Below, piece after piece: positions 4,634 to 13,098 of a DNA stretch of 52,848 bases. Origin of the DNA: a bacterium (GTDB taxonomy: Bacteria > Vulcanimicrobiota > Vulcanimicrobiia > Eremiobacterales > Eremiobacteraceae); the NCBI GenBank assembly GCA_902812405.1, contig CADDZI010000010.1:1-52848 (forward strand). The letters run 5' to 3'. A program made the translations under genes and the position numbers. Each line of letters begins with the position of its first letter. Positions within the stretch are counted from its first letter, which is position 1. A model generated the notes under the pieces. That model saw nothing but the letters and a program-made list of their open reading frames with translations. It did not search any database and was not told the DNA's origin.

Positions 4634-6364
4634 TTAGCGGTCTTCGTCTGCTCGGGCCAGAGACATCGCTTCCTTGGTGACCGACTTGAGGAATTCTTCG
4701 TTGCTGTCGGTGCGGCGGAAGCGCTCGAGGATCAACTCGGTCATCTCCTGGGTGCCCAGGACGGCCGTGGCCCGGCGCAGCATGACGACCTTGCGCAGCT
4801 CGATCTCGCTCAGCAGCAACTCCTCGTGCCGCGTGCCCGAACGCTTGATGTCCACCGCCGGGAAGATTCGGCTGTCGGCCAGCTTGCGGACCAGGTTGAT
4901 CTCCATGTTCCCGGTGCCTTTGAACTCTTCGAAGATGACGTCATCCATCTTCGAGCCGGTCTCGATGAGCGCCGTCGCCACGATAGTCAGGCTGCCGCCG
5001 TTTTCGATGTTGCGGGCCGCACCGAAGAAGCGCTTGGGTTTGTGGAGGGCACTCGTGTCCAGACCGCCGGACAGCGTGCGCCCGGTGGAGGGCATGACCT
5101 GATTCCAGGCCCGCGCCAGACGGGTAATCGAATCCAGCAGGATCACGACGTCGTGCCCCAGCTCCACCAAACGCTTGCAGCGCTCGAGCGTCAACTCGGC
5201 GACTGCAGTGTGGTTCTCCGGGTGCTCGTCGAAGGTGGAGGAGATGACTTCACCTTCGATCGAGCGCCGCATGTCGGTGACCTCCTCGGGCCGCTCGTCC
5301 ACCAGGAGCGCAAAGAGGTCGCACTCCGGGTGGTTGGCGGCGATCGCGTTGGCAATCTTCTTGAGGAGGGTGGTCTTACCGGCCTTGGGCGGTGAGACGA
5401 TGAGCGCCCGCTGACCCTTGCCGATCGGACAGAAGAGATCGAAGACGCGCCCGCACATCTCCAGTGGGGAGGTCTCCATCTTCAGGCGCTGGTCGGGGTA
5501 GACCGGGATGAGCTTGTCGAAGTGCGGACGGCCGCGCAAAGACTCGGGGTCTTGGCCGTTGACCGCCTCGACCTTCAGAATGCCGTGGTACTTCTCGTTG
5601 TCTTTGGGGTCGCGGATTTGACCCGCAATCAAATCCCCGGTGCGCAGTTCAAAACGCCGGATTTGGGACTGCGAGACGTAGACGTCGTGCGGCCCGGGGC
5701 GCATGTTCTCGCGCCGCAAAAAGCCGTAGCCCTCGGGCAAAATCTCGAGAACGCCGACGGCGAAATTGAGGCCGGCGGCCTTGGCTTGCGCTTCCAGGAT
5801 GGGAAAGATGAGGTCGTGTTTCTTGATACGTTGGAGGTCTTTGATGCCCAGCGACTTTGCGATCTCGACGAGCTCGCCGCGGGTCTTGTCTTCGAGCTCC
5901 TTCACCGAGAGGAGGGGAACGGTTTCGCCGTCTTTGTTCTGATAGGTCCGCACGGGAGGCGTTTCGCGCTCGACGTACACCCGCGCGGGGTACACGCGCT
6001 GCACGCGGTCCGGCCGCCCGCCGCGGTCGAAGCGCCCGCCCCTCTCATAGCGCGGTTCACCGCGTTCGTAGCGCGGATGCTCGGGCCGCTCGGGGCGCTG
6101 TTCGCTGCGCTCGGCCGGCTCGGGAGGCGACGATTCAGCCCCTTCGGCTCGGGCCGGTTGAGAGTGGGGAACCCTGGCCGGTGCCAGTCCGGACCCGCTG
6201 GGGCCGTTACGTTCGCGGTGACGGGGCCGGGGGGAGGGTTCCTCCGCCGGTTGAGCAGAGGTAGGTTCTGCGCCACGCGAGGGAGATTCTGCAGACTGGG
6301 TCTCGGGGGAAAGAGATTCGTTTTCTTCTTGCACGCTTGATCTCAGCCTATGCTGGAGTGCCAC
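4634..6364 (-). CDS. rho: Transcription termination factor Rho with long RG-rich N-terminal extension
   Basis: A 576-residue Rho homologue. The conserved core begins near residue 150 with the N-terminal helical domain. An RNA-binding cold-shock-like domain follows (GVLEILPEGYGFLRRENMRPG, about 204-224), then the RecA-type ATPase with P-loop SPPKAGKTT (about 324-332), LLVDERPEEVTDM and the Q/R-loop region. Rho is a hexameric RNA translocase that ends transcription. The first ~150 residues are low-complexity: Pro/Glu/Ser-rich, then Arg/Gly-rich with PRYERGEPRYERGGRFDRGG. Such insertions occur in high-GC Rho proteins and bind RNA or drive condensation in some of them. A strong promoter lies about 115 bases upstream. 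Confidence 0.96.
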   Translation of the reverse strand: MALQHRLRSSVQEENESLSPETQSAESPSRGAEPTSAQPAEEPSPRPRHRERNGPSGSGLAPARVPHSQPARAEGAESSPPEPAERSEQRPERPEHPRYERGEPRYERGGRFDRGGRPDRVQRVYPARVYVERETPPVRTYQNKDGETVPLLSVKELEDKTRGELVEIAKSLGIKDLQRIKKHDLIFPILEAQAKAAGLNFAVGVLEILPEGYGFLRRENMRPGPHDVYVSQSQIRRFELRTGDLIAGQIRDPKDNEKYHGILKVEAVNGQDPESLRGRPHFDKLIPVYPDQRLKMETSPLEMCGRVFDLFCPIGKGQRALIVSPPKAGKTTLLKKIANAIAANHPECDLFALLVDERPEEVTDMRRSIEGEVISSTFDEHPENHTAVAELTLERCKRLVELGHDVVILLDSITRLARAWNQVMPSTGRTLSGGLDTSALHKPKRFFGAARNIENGGSLTIVATALIETGSKMDDVIFEEFKGTGNMEINLVRKLADSRIFPAVDIKRSGTRHEELLLSEIELRKVVMLRRATAVLGTQEMTELILERFRRTDSNEEFLKSVTKEAMSLARADEDR

Positions 6365-6532: not shown

Positions 6533-7306
6533 TCACCGAGGGTTATCGGCCGCTCCCACGGACGCTTTTAGGGACCGTCCGTCAGGCGCACGCCGCCGGA
6601 AGGGTGAGACGCTCGGGCTCGCCGGGTCGAAGAAGCGCAAGGGCCAAGTGCGCGCGGTACTGAGGCCGATGCGGGGCGTCACGGCGAGAGCAGCCGGCGC
6701 CGGCTCGATACCCGGTTCAATGCGCAGATCGCCGGCTCGCAGGTCGGCGCCATCGCAGCCAAGATCGATGGCGAATGCGCGGCACAGATTGCCCGGCCCG
6801 CTGGCTACAGCGGCGGGAGGGACCTCGCAACCGCGCAGCCGGCGCATGATGTCGGCACCGGACTGGGGTTCGACCGCTCGAATGAGGACCGCCGCGCCAA
6901 TACCCGGCGGTTCGGTCGTGACGTTGAAACAGTAGTACATGCCGTAGATCAGGTACACGTACGCGTGGCCCGGGCGCCCGAAGAGCGTCACGCTGCGCGG
7001 TGTCGGTCCTCGGTAGCCGTGACAGGACGGATCGACGATCGGTAGATAGGCCTCGGTCTCCACGATACGACCGCGCAGCCAGGTGCCCGCTCCGGGCAAC
7101 CCTTGCGGGACGCGCCGGGAGAGGATCGCCCCAACGAGCCGGCGGGCAACCGCAACGGTCGGACCGTCGAAGAGGCTATCGACGGCGGTTGTCGTGTCCT
7201 GCCCGCGCGGGCTGCGCAGCAGGCTGCTGTTTCGGGTTGGCATGCCGAATGTCAGTTCGCTCTTGACGGCAAGCTCCTTTCGCGTGATGATTGTAAACAC
7301 TATCAT
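6533..7306 (-). CDS. Methylpurine-DNA glycosylase (AAG/MPG family)
   Basis: A 257-residue frame of the 3-methyladenine DNA glycosylase (AAG) family, which excises alkylated purines. The active-site segment GRIVETEAYLPIVDPSCHGY matches the eukaryotic and Bacillus enzymes: Glu85 corresponds to the water-activating Glu, and Tyr87 and His96 line the pocket. YVYLIYGMYYCFNV and the ASGPGNLCRAFAID motif are also conserved. The start is unsure. A GTG at 7300 has GGAG eight bases upstream, and an ATG at 7243 would still keep the whole domain. The gene is divergent from the pseudopilin gene. No LexA-type box was seen upstream. Confidence 0.9.
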   Translation of the reverse strand: MIVFTIITRKELAVKSELTFGMPTRNSSLLRSPRGQDTTTAVDSLFDGPTVAVARRLVGAILSRRVPQGLPGAGTWLRGRIVETEAYLPIVDPSCHGYRGPTPRSVTLFGRPGHAYVYLIYGMYYCFNVTTEPPGIGAAVLIRAVEPQSGADIMRRLRGCEVPPAAVASGPGNLCRAFAIDLGCDGADLRAGDLRIEPGIEPAPAALAVTPRIGLSTARTWPLRFFDPASPSVSPFRRRAPDGRSLKASVGAADNPR

Positions 7307-9520: not shown

Positions 9521-10609
9521 ATGCCCGATCCGGACCGTCTAACCCGCACGCTCAAGACGCTGGCCACCGTCGCCCTGGCCCTGGCTTTGGCTGCTGTTGC
9601 ACTGGTCATCGCCCACAAGATCCTGGGCGTGCTCGTCGTGCTTGTCGGTGCGGTGCTCTTTGCCTACCTTGTGTACCCTCTCGTGCGGCGCCTGGAGCGG
9701 CGCATGCCGCGTTGGCTGGCGATTGTCTGCGTCTACGTGTTGTTTCTCGTCGCCGCCGGCGGCGTGGGGGCGTTCATCGGCCCGCGCATCGCGTTTGAAT
9801 CGCACGCGCTGGCGCGGGATTTTCCGCGCCTTCTCGCACAGGGCCAAAGCGGCATTCTCAACGCCCACCTGGCGATCGTCGGCGCGGTGCCCCTGGAGGC
9901 CCGCGAGAGCGTCGCCAAAGTGCTCGACAGCGCGGCGGCCTCGATACAGCACGGCGCCGTCAGCCTCGTCGGACAAGCCCTGGGAGTGCTGCTCAGCGTC
10001 GCCTCGGTCCTGACCGCGCTCGTGGTCATTCCGGTGCTGACCTTTTACCTTCTCATGGATCTCGAGCGCCTGCGCGCCGGATTTCTGCGCTTGGTCCCTC
10101 CCGGTCACCGGCACGCGGCGCTGCTGGTGCTGGGGGACGTCGACGGGGTCTTGGGCGGCTTCATACGCGGTCAGATCGTCGTGGGAGCTGTGATCGCCGT
10201 CTTGGTGACGGTCCTACTGCTCGTGTTGCGCATTAAGTATGCCTTCCTCATCGGGCTGTTTGCGGGGATCGTGGACGTCATCCCCTACTTGGGCGCGGTC
10301 GCCGGGGCCGTCCCGGCGGTTCTTATTGCCACGCTGACGCATGGACCCGGCTGGGCTCTCTTGGTCGCCGCCGGATTTGTTGCCATCTACCAGGTCGAGG
10401 GGCACGTCGTGGCGCCGACCGTCGTCGGACAGCGGGTCGGTCTGACGCCTCTGATGGTCATCGTCGCGATCTTGACGGGAGCCGAACTGGGCGGCATTCT
10501 GGGTATGTTCCTTGCGGTGCCGATAGCGGCGATTGCGAGGGCACTGGTCGCCCGCTTTGTGCCGGCCGACGCCCCCCCAACAACACGGGAGCCGGGAGCC
10601 GAGGTCTAG
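9521..10609 (+). CDS. AI-2E transporter (PerM) family permease
   Basis: A 362-residue polytopic membrane protein. The start used is the ATG with GGAGAACG upstream; the longer frame would run through the terminator hairpin. Hydrophobic segments near residues 14-50 and 65-85 are followed by a soluble region. Then come several helices, including the LIGLFAGIVDVIPYLGAVAG and VVAPTVVGQRVGLTPLMVI motifs that mark this family. Members include TqsA (AI-2 export) and PerM-type proteins and exporters of unrelated solutes, so the substrate is not predictable. It converges with the SOS-type gene, overlapping its 3' end by four bases. Confidence 0.88.
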   Translation: MPDPDRLTRTLKTLATVALALALAAVALVIAHKILGVLVVLVGAVLFAYLVYPLVRRLERRMPRWLAIVCVYVLFLVAAGGVGAFIGPRIAFESHALARDFPRLLAQGQSGILNAHLAIVGAVPLEARESVAKVLDSAAASIQHGAVSLVGQALGVLLSVASVLTALVVIPVLTFYLLMDLERLRAGFLRLVPPGHRHAALLVLGDVDGVLGGFIRGQIVVGAVIAVLVTVLLLVLRIKYAFLIGLFAGIVDVIPYLGAVAGAVPAVLIATLTHGPGWALLVAAGFVAIYQVEGHVVAPTVVGQRVGLTPLMVIVAILTGAELGGILGMFLAVPIAAIARALVARFVPADAPPTTREPGAEV

Positions 10610-11067
10610 CTTGCGGCAGGTAACAAACCCGGATACATCGTCGCCGCAAGAGCCGCCGCTTTAGACCGCAAGTCTTCAACCCGGCTCGCAGGGGCTACAG
10701 CCAGGCGCGCGTGGCGCATTTCGTTGAGCTTGCAGCCCGCAATAATGTACTCGAGCGTCAGCTCTTTGGGAGGATCAGCCCGGCGCTCGAGCTCGGCAAC
10801 CAGCTGATCGTCGTCGGTGAGAATGAGGATGCGGTCGGCCTTAAAGGCCCGCAGGCGATCCAGGGCGGTGACGAAACCCGCGTAGCTGTATGCCCTGCGC
10901 GGGGCGTCCGGGGGAACCGAGAAGGGCAGGAAGCACTCGCTGGTTCCGCGCTCTCCCGACACCCGCAGCCCCGACAGGCCGTGGCCGTGTGCGCAGGGTA
11001 CGACGGCAAGGAGGGCTTGGAGTTCCGTGCGGCGCGCCCGCGCCGGCTTCTCGGGTGACTGGATCAC
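10606..11067 (-). CDS. Unknown protein behind a LexA-type box, weak RNase H-fold resemblance
   Basis: A 153-residue protein starting at a GTG. No confident family. The middle part, YAGFVTALDRLRAFKADRI followed by LILTDDDQLVAELERR, then a basic helix and a C-terminal helix (DLRSKAAALAATMYPG), resembles the RNase HI-type order. In that order a helix is followed by a strand with an acidic TDS-like motif. The first catalytic Asp of that fold is not evident, so this is only a fold suggestion. What is firm is the promoter: a LexA-type palindrome lies between perfect -35 and near-perfect -10 boxes, and the GTG is six bases after the -10. It should be induced by DNA damage from a leaderless transcript. 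Confidence 0.6.
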   Translation of the reverse strand: MIQSPEKPARARRTELQALLAVVPCAHGHGLSGLRVSGERGTSECFLPFSVPPDAPRRAYSYAGFVTALDRLRAFKADRILILTDDDQLVAELERRADPPKELTLEYIIAGCKLNEMRHARLAVAPASRVEDLRSKAAALAATMYPGLLPAAS

Positions 11068-11073
11068 GCTTCC

Positions 11074-11103
11074 ATTTTAATCGAACATATGTTCGAATGT
11101 CAA
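11074..11103 (-). promoter_or_regulatory. Promoter with -35 TTGACA and -10 TAAAAT
   Basis: On the minus strand TTGACA (11098-11103) and TAAAAT (11074-11079) are separated by 18 bases. The GTG start at 11067 is six bases downstream of the -10. Transcription would therefore begin at or next to the start codon, giving a leaderless mRNA. The spacer is occupied by the LexA-type palindrome. Confidence 0.8.
11081..11096. promoter_or_regulatory. LexA-type SOS box (perfect palindrome)
   Basis: TCGAACATATGTTCGA is a perfect 16-bp palindrome. It contains CGAACATATGTTCG, the consensus LexA/DinR operator of Bacillus and many actinobacteria (CGAAC-N4-GTTCG). It fills the -35/-10 spacer of the gene ending at 10606, the ideal position for repression. 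LexA itself is not in the window. Confidence 0.85.
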
Positions 11104-11294
11104 CGGTCACGGTTCATCAAATCAGGACCGGCAGGATGGCGCGTACCTTAAAACGGGACGCCTTTATCTTATGCCCTACCCGCCAAGTTCGGCTCGCCGA
11201 TACCCCGCAGGTGTCTTCACGATAGTACTAATGAGACGCCGAGCGGTGTCTCACAGCACACCCTCTGAGTCAAAGCCATAACCCGGCGCAACGG

Positions 11295-11519
11295 ATGACG
11301 CAACAGCGGGTTCTCCACGTCGACTTAACGCCTGCCGACGAAGGCAGTGACGTCGTGAAGGTACGTGAGATCCCGAATTGCGTCACGCAGGGAGATACGG
11401 AGAAAGAGGCAGTCGAGAACGCGCTAGATGCTATTACTCTTTGCCTTCAGGAAATGGAACCAAGGAACGGGGATGCGTCAAACGCCCGAACGGTGCCTGG
11501 GCAGCATTCCGATTCATAA
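11295..11519 (+). CDS. HicB-like antitoxin, probably truncated
   Basis: A 74-residue protein whose first ~55 residues match the HicB RNase-H-like domain. The signature is VREIPNCVTQGDTEKEAVEN, then ALDAITLCLQEME (HicB pattern: EIPGCVTQGDTLEEALENAKEAI). HicB neutralises the HicA mRNA interferase. The C-terminal DNA-binding part is missing. After LQEME the frame runs on through sequence that, read one frame over, encodes the C-terminus of a HicA. This suggests a deletion joined hicB to the 3' part of hicA. The protein may still be made but is unlikely to be a functional antitoxin pair member. Confidence 0.65.
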   Translation: MTQQRVLHVDLTPADEGSDVVKVREIPNCVTQGDTEKEAVENALDAITLCLQEMEPRNGDASNARTVPGQHSDS

Positions 11520-11631
11520 CAAGCCTTTGAAGAAGGGGACGATTTCCCACATCCTGCGGTGTCTTCATCTCACGCCGAGCGACGCGGCTGAACCGCCACC
11601 CTTGACAAGGCGAGGAAGGCTTGCACGATAG
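11473..11631 (+). pseudogene. HicA toxin remnant (C-terminal half only)
   Basis: In the frame one base ahead of the HicB frame, the translation CLGSIPIHNKPLKKGTISHI, then LRCLHLTPSD, matches the HicA C-terminus (usual form: VPVHNKPLKKGTLRSILRQAGL). The N-terminal half, including the double-stranded RNA-binding Gly and the catalytic His region, is not present in any frame upstream. It overlaps the tail of the HicB frame. The toxin is therefore broken. Confidence 0.6.
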
Positions 11632-11698
11632 ATAGCCTCGTCCACATGGTGGAGGCAGACCTTCGCCTTCCGCCCGATGCACGTTCCCCGAACCGAGT

Positions 11699-12925
11699 TT
11701 AACGGAGTCTGTGCGAGTTTTCTTGTGCCTCCAGTGCGTCCATTCTTGTCTCCCGCAGAGCAGACTGATCGAAACCAGCGTTCTCCCGCACGGCCTCGTA
11801 AATCGCGAGGACACGGCCGGCTGTCGCCCGGATGTCGAACGCTGCGGCGGCGGTCTTTGCGTGCAGCAACGCCTGCGCCCGGCGCTGGGCATCGGTCAAC
11901 AACTCCCGAGCAGCGCGAGCCATTGCTTGGGCGCTGGGGGCAATCTCGCCGGCCAGGTGTTCTCCGAAGACATCACGCGTTTGCGGTGAATCCATGGCAA
12001 CCACCGGCAGACCTGCCGCAAATGCCTCGGCCAGGACCAAACCTTGCGTCTCGGTCACGCTCGGGAACACGAAAAGGTCGGCAGCCGCATAGTACGCCGG
12101 AATGTGCGCATGTTCCACCGCTCCCGCGAAGAACACCGCACTCTCCAGGCCCCGGTTGCGCACGCTCTCACGCAAGACCCCGCGCAGCGGTCCGTCACCG
12201 ACGACGAGCAGCCGTGCGCCGGGGAGATCGTGGCGCACGAGTTGCAACACGTCAAACGCCAGCGGAATGTTCTTCTCCTGTGCCAAGCGCGAGACGAGCA
12301 GCAGCAGCGGCGCGTCGGCCGGAATGCCGAGCTGCGTACGCAGGGATTCACGGGCGCCGCGGTCGATGTGCCGGAAGGCGTCGATGTCCACACCGGTCGG
12401 TACGACGCATAGCGGCGTGCGCACCCCCAGATCGCGCAGCGCGGCGGCCACGGCTTTGGTCGGCACGATGACCGCATCTGCCGCATTGGCGTAGTTGCGC
12501 GTCAGCTCGCGCGTCAGCTGCGTGGTGAAACGCCGCCCCAACGGCGAGTAGTGCGCGTACTCCTCCAAGAGCGTGTGGTACGTGAAGACCAGCGGCACGT
12601 GGAAGCGCCGGCGCGCGTAGTATGCCGCCATCCAGCCCGTAATGAAGAGGGAGTGACTGTGAATGATGTCGCAGCGGCTCAAGAAGCGGATCTTGTTGCG
12701 TCGTGCGACGAGCGGTAGCGTCAGCCGATACTGGGTGCGCGCCGGTAACGGCAATGACGGCATGCGGAAGACGCGGCCCGCGCTCTCCGAACCGCGCGGG
12801 ATGTGCGGCGCGAAGGTAAATGCCTCGTGCCCCAGCGCACGCAATTGTTCGGCCAGGCTTTCAACAGACGTCACGACGCCGTTGACGATCGGGCGATAGA
12901 CCTCGGTGAAAATCGCTACTCTCAT
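11699..12925 (-). CDS. Glycosyltransferase family 4 (GT-B fold)
   Basis: A 408-residue GT4 enzyme. The start chosen gives MRVAIFTEVYRPIVNGVV, the usual N-terminus of the group including alpha-mannosyl- and diacylglycerol glucosyltransferases. The acceptor-domain segment IIHSHSLFITG is followed by the donor-binding C-domain with LLVVGDGPLRGVLRE. The EX7E-type region is in FVFPSVTETQGLVLAEAFAA. Likely role: transfer of a hexose from a nucleotide sugar to a lipid or glycan at the membrane. The start overlaps the stop of a small upstream frame as ATGA, which suggests translational coupling. Exact donor and acceptor are unknown. Confidence 0.88.
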   Translation of the reverse strand: MRVAIFTEVYRPIVNGVVTSVESLAEQLRALGHEAFTFAPHIPRGSESAGRVFRMPSLPLPARTQYRLTLPLVARRNKIRFLSRCDIIHSHSLFITGWMAAYYARRRFHVPLVFTYHTLLEEYAHYSPLGRRFTTQLTRELTRNYANAADAVIVPTKAVAAALRDLGVRTPLCVVPTGVDIDAFRHIDRGARESLRTQLGIPADAPLLLLVSRLAQEKNIPLAFDVLQLVRHDLPGARLLVVGDGPLRGVLRESVRNRGLESAVFFAGAVEHAHIPAYYAAADLFVFPSVTETQGLVLAEAFAAGLPVVAMDSPQTRDVFGEHLAGEIAPSAQAMARAARELLTDAQRRAQALLHAKTAAAAFDIRATAGRVLAIYEAVRENAGFDQSALRETRMDALEAQENSHRLR

Positions 12926-13098
12926 CGCGCGCTGGCAAGCCGTGTCATGTGTGCGTCGTCGGGATCCGCGAGGGTATCGTCTTTCGGAACGTCCCGCAAC
13001 GCTGGAGACGAATGCGTTCGGTATAAAGAACTCCACGCCGCAGAGCGGTACAACAAGTCCCGCAAACGGGGAAATGCACGGTTGTGCGGTATCTTCAT
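12922..13098 (-). CDS. Possible small protein translationally coupled to the glycosyltransferase
   Basis: A 58-residue frame (MKIPHNRAFPRLRDLLYRSA at the start), basic at the N-terminus, with no recognised family and no membrane helix. Its stop overlaps the glycosyltransferase start as ATGA. GAGGG lies just before its ATG. The arrangement is the only support that it is real. It could instead be a leader whose translation controls the downstream gene. Confidence 0.35.
   Translation of the reverse strand: MKIPHNRAFPRLRDLLYRSAAWSSLYRTHSSPALRDVPKDDTLADPDDAHMTRLASAR

Follow-up and report, generated by a model that had tools for sequence, protein, structure and literature searches.

The window is the whole stretch of DNA analysed here, 52,848 nucleotides of contig CADDZI010000010.1 from an Eremiobacteraceae genome (assembly GCA_902812405.1; 2.32 Mb in 110 contigs). 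Its minus strand carries a 153-codon gene, referred to below as the SOS gene, together with the following features.

4634..6364, minus strand: transcription terminator Rho, next in the conserved gene order
6533..7306, minus strand: methylpurine-DNA glycosylase (PF02245), downstream of the SOS gene and not adjacent to it in the window
10606..11067, minus strand: SOS gene with a GTG start, for a 153-residue protein of predicted RNase H fold without the DEDD active site
11074..11079, minus strand: -10 hexamer TAAAAT, separated from the -35 by an 18-bp spacer
11081..11096, no strand: predicted LexA operator TCGAACATATGTTCGA, inside the promoter spacer
11082-11095: 14-mer core CGAACATATGTTCG of the operator, within the 18-bp spacer
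11098..11103, minus strand: -35 hexamer TTGACA, found by direct reading and by a mechanical promoter scan
11699..13036, minus strand: GT4-type glycosyltransferase, the conserved upstream neighbour of the SOS gene

The promoter at 11103-11074 is the only sigma-70-like site that the mechanical scan detected within 10000-12000, and it matches 11 of the 12 consensus positions. A preliminary description of this DNA, which covered 11068-11103 (from the base preceding the GTG up to the -35), had reported TTGACA, an 18-base spacer and TAAAAT, a palindrome inside the spacer and a GTG six bases past the -10. All of these elements were found again: the palindrome is TCGAACATATGTTCGA, and the GTG at 11067 follows the -10 by 6 nt. 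The exact 14-mer CGAACATATGTTCG occurs once in the window, where the runner-up sites have three mismatches. The same description called the palindrome a LexA-type consensus, and the operator indeed equals the published consensus of the Firmicutes and Actinobacteria type (PMC2248561). The operator thus matches the Gram-positive LexA operators (the Cheo box CGAACRNRYGTTYC and the TCGAAC-based operator of Actinobacteria), but it occurs in Eremiobacteria.

The GTG at 11067 opens the 153-codon frame and is its only plausible start, because a stop codon interrupts the same frame 12 nt before the GTG, and the first 90 nt contain no alternative start codon in frame. Each of the 11 members in the window's family has a start codon, ATG or GTG, 6 or 9 nt past the -10, too close for a ribosome-binding site to fit in if transcription begins about 7 nt past the -10. 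This spacing makes a leaderless mRNA of the SOS gene likely in the window's family. In the larger family of the class, the first start lies 6 nt past the -10 in 16 cases and 11-29 nt away in many others, and 34 members have a Shine-Dalgarno-like tetramer. Given that many relatives outside the window's family have space for a leader of 11-29 nt, the earlier suggestion of a leaderless transcript appears to hold for the window's family but not for the class in general. A leaderless mRNA of an SOS gene has been shown experimentally for lexA of Mycobacterium tuberculosis (PMC2897130); that is a different gene, and leaderlessness is read here from the spacing only.

The window's genome has one full-length lexA (TIGR00498, 232 bits, above the cut-off), and LexA exceeds the same cut-off in 122 of the 147 genomes of the phylum. 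The protein retains the Ala-Gly site, the GDSM serine and the later lysine, as in self-cleaving LexA, and its helix-turn-helix looks similar to that of Bacillus. The lexA gene itself is preceded by the near match CGAACATATGTTTG, with two mismatches to the 16-mer. The exact 16-mer TCGAACATATGTTCGA occurs twice in the assembly, ahead of the SOS gene and ahead of an imuA-imuB-dnaE2 cassette, in which a RecA/ImuA-like gene is followed by a Y-family-polymerase-like ImuB and then by DnaE2. In other phyla, this cassette is known to be under SOS control (PMC8565304). The SOS gene shares its 16-bp operator with the cassette but lies at a separate locus, and its product is unrelated to ImuA, ImuB and DnaE2.

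Sixteen sites in the genome lie within three mismatches of the 16-mer, as compared to none for a reversed control pattern, while CGAAC-N4-GTTCG occurs at 11 sites against two for its control. The remaining CGAAC-N4-GTTCG sites are mostly outside promoters. Since no plausible gene start follows most of them, we rejected these as operators and treated them as chance occurrences. On contig G000:C2, a near-consensus box appears to lie ahead of a gene that by its sequence resembles class II ribonucleotide reductases, and two adjacent near-consensus LexA boxes precede a gene whose product combines a DEDDh exonuclease and a GIY-YIG domain. No recognisable LexA box was found in the approximately 500 bp scanned upstream of recA (G000:C8:13849), which points to an unusual SOS network or to control of recA elsewhere.

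When 149 genomes from the phylum were searched with the protein, 93 proved to have homologues. This search provided all of the 94 loci considered here, two of which are cut by contig ends, leaving 92 with enough upstream DNA. With a 50-member profile, homologues were found in 104 of 147 genomes, a few of these matches being fragments or weak; all 104 are among the 115 genomes of the class Eremiobacteria, and none of the 32 genomes from the other classes of the phylum has one. Conservation gives the strongest evidence for the box: a perfect CGAAC-N4-GTTCG lies just upstream of the gene at 91 of the 92 loci, and the box at the one other locus has a single mismatch. The 14-mer is placed wholly within a 16-18 bp spacer between the -35 and the -10 at 90 of the 92 loci, and the TTGAC of the -35 is retained in 89. 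No further perfect box occurs anywhere in the 303,075 bases of the homologous loci.

When the box was searched for together with the -35 (TTGAC-N0-3-box), the window's genome gave a single match, the SOS gene, and so did most genomes in its family. Genomes of the large family of the class usually gave one to three matches, another of them being a RecA/ImuA-like gene. The control pattern gave about zero matches, and the 32 genomes of other classes together gave one. A TTGAC-CGAACGTACGTTCG promoter is also present ahead of an apparent ftsY, for the SRP receptor (G041:C1:2555720), and the identical site is found again in further genomes of genus g14.

These observations leave little room for the view that the palindrome is a chance sequence or an unrelated operator and that the gene lies outside the SOS regulon. 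Similar palindromes do exist elsewhere in the genome, outside promoters, but all 92 homologues keep the box ahead of the gene, no further one occurs in the 303 kb of these loci, the control patterns are near zero, and an identical operator precedes imuA-imuB-dnaE2; we regard this explanation as extremely improbable. The preliminary description had proposed an SOS gene, and both the presence of lexA and the box ahead of the homologues support that proposal. From the conserved box, the promoter, lexA and the operator common to imuA-imuB-dnaE2, we infer that LexA would bind this site in vivo, and LexA control of the SOS gene is, on this comparative evidence, very highly probable.

A narrower scan of GTDB species genomes with a peptide pattern detected seven loci, all with the box; since one degenerate pattern was used, the scan is a poor guide to whether other phyla have distant relatives. 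The titles of these loci are Candidatus Eremiobacterota/Eremiobacter, "bacterium" and, once, Proteobacteria. The last, JAJPHJ010000065.1, has both the SOS gene and the box, and it is probably a mislabelled metagenome-assembled genome of Eremiobacterota. A phage or defence origin of the SOS gene is unsupported, because no relatives of its product were found in IMG/VR or in the phage and plasmid collections.

The surroundings of the gene are also conserved. The GT4 glycosyltransferase lies upstream at 88 of the 94 loci, and 67 loci have rho downstream, on the same strand. Among the 83 loci outside the window's family, 63 have the methylpurine-DNA glycosylase directly after the SOS gene, on the same strand and often with a 4-base overlap. 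The window keeps the order glycosyltransferase, SOS gene, glycosylase and rho on the minus strand, with plus-strand genes, including one for an AI-2E family transporter, intervening between the SOS gene and the glycosylase. As the two genes are not adjacent in the window's own family, the operon partnership with the glycosylase is not universal. In the window the glycosyltransferase and the SOS gene lie 630 bp apart, against mostly 20-110 bp in other genomes; this interval of the window contains a 74-residue open reading frame (11295-11519, plus strand) with weak likeness to the HicB antitoxin (E 1.5e-4 to PF15919, short of the Pfam cut-off).

The product of the SOS gene is assigned to no family in Pfam, NCBIfam, PHROGs or PADLOC, in agreement with the earlier statement that it has no clear family. 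An AlphaFold model built from eight sequences (pLDDT 87, pTM 0.81) has the element order b-b-b-a-b-a-a-b-a. When this model was compared with known structures using Foldseek, as the preliminary description had proposed for RNase H folds, the best PDB matches were RNase HI enzymes: 3aly (E 3e-8), 4e19 and 3hst, with a TM of about 0.66. One homologue exceeds the cut-off of Pfam RVT_3 (PF13456). The family profile aligns with the RNase HI of the phylum in hhalign (E 2e-5, 66 columns), and a search with this profile independently lists the window genome's own RNase HI (E 7.6e-4). The RNase H-like layout guessed earlier was therefore right, as the model, the PDB matches, RVT_3 and hhalign all indicate, although the active site is missing. 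That the predicted structure reflects a true RNase H fold is, in our judgement, practically certain.

With RNase HI of the RVT_3 type (Sulfolobus tokodaii, 3aly; the N-terminal domain of M. tuberculosis Rv2228c, 3hst), the SOS protein shares the fold, the element order and a detectable sequence kinship. It differs in lacking the conserved catalytic acids and in its predicted LexA control, and a normal RNase HI is encoded by a separate gene. An RVT_3 RNase HI is also present in all 41 genomes examined, and the copy in the window's genome keeps the expected motifs.

We compared the homologues with the catalytic residues D10, E48, D70 and D134 of Escherichia coli RNase HI; E48 and D70 fall in the stretch aligned by hhalign, and the register at D10 and D134 is less certain. 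At the position equivalent to E48, the homologues have Gly, Ala, Ser or another residue, with glutamate not among the common ones. Asp is present at the D70 position in 32 of 92 homologues; the others mostly have Pro, Ala or Gly there, and Pro or Ala accounts for nearly half of all homologues. At the D10 position, Cys or varied residues are found, and no DG motif is present in the first strand. The E48 and D10 positions are non-acidic in the window's family. Most of the window's family has lost the Asp of the D134 region (D132), a position that is acidic in most relatives. On the other hand, Y107 and C112 are invariant, D86 is 97% conserved and position 92 is almost always acidic. We conclude that, judged by its defining residues, the SOS protein would belong to the RNase H fold without being an RNase HI enzyme, and the loss of these residues makes it highly likely that it has no RNase H activity. 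YpdQ/YpeP of Bacillus subtilis resembles it in being RNase HI-like and reported to lack RNase H activity; YpdQ/YpeP differs in that it is not known to be under LexA control.

Taken together, we favor, with a probability of roughly 0.7, the reading that this gene belongs to the core SOS genes of the whole class and encodes a non-catalytic protein of RNase H fold, with a leaderless mRNA in the window's family. In the proposed mechanism, LexA would bind CGAACATATGTTCG between the -35 and the -10 and thereby exclude RNA polymerase. Upon DNA damage, RecA-stimulated self-cleavage of LexA would open the promoter. Transcription in the window's family would then begin at or beside the start codon to give a leaderless mRNA, while in most relatives the product is probably made together with the methylpurine-DNA glycosylase. 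The product would be a compact RNase H-fold protein, akin to RNase HI, whose catalytic acids have been lost. Given that loss, it is probably a non-enzymatic part of the DNA-damage response, and it most likely acts by binding rather than cutting, perhaps as an accessory for the repair or replication of damaged DNA. We hold this role, as against other roles in the SOS response, only tentatively and at slightly less than even odds, yet it ranks as the most likely one, followed by inhibition of cell division and then by an altered nuclease.

SOS division inhibitors differ from lineage to lineage, with SulA, YneA and SidA serving in other lineages, and the SOS protein could be that of this class, with its RNase H scaffold put to new use in binding proteins and stalling the divisome. 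It is small and lineage-restricted, it lacks an intact active site, and its gene has the strongest-looking SOS promoter in the genome. Division inhibitors are moreover common in SOS regulons (PMC8565304). However, the protein has a clear kinship to a nucleic-acid enzyme, and its neighbours are a DNA glycosylase and rho, not division genes, so that we consider a role in division unlikely. Still less probable is a nuclease that remains active through a rearranged site, for example D86, the acidic residue 92 and D132, and whose task in the SOS response would be the trimming of RNA:DNA hybrids or damaged ends. The fold itself, the strong conservation of D86 and position 92 and the acidic D132 of most relatives would suit such an enzyme, and the position of D86 beside the expected catalytic residue implies that some metal-dependent chemistry is possible. 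Nevertheless, the cluster of three to four acids typical of RNase H is gone (the E48, D10 and D70 positions, and D132 in the window's family), and a regular RNase HI is already encoded in every one of the 41 genomes.

Returning to the repair or replication accessory, a more specific and doubtful version is that the class as a whole has converted a relative of RNase HI into an SOS effector that does not cut but recognises RNA:DNA hybrids or damaged forks and that, together with the glycosylase and Rho encoded in its own gene cluster, links transcription clearance to repair.

Our literature searches found no work joining LexA and Eremiobacter and no LexA-controlled pseudo-RNase H; for Eremiobacterota and the SOS response, they found only work on airborne viruses. 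The Eremiobacteria, which are known mostly from metagenome-assembled genomes, gain a defined SOS operator, along with a signature SOS gene that is named in none of the family libraries. The conserved operator makes mapping of the SOS regulon across the class straightforward. A degenerate RNase H under what is apparently the tightest damage control in the genome would be a candidate for a new mode of damage handling, with RNA:DNA hybrids, forks or the divisome as its candidate sites of action.
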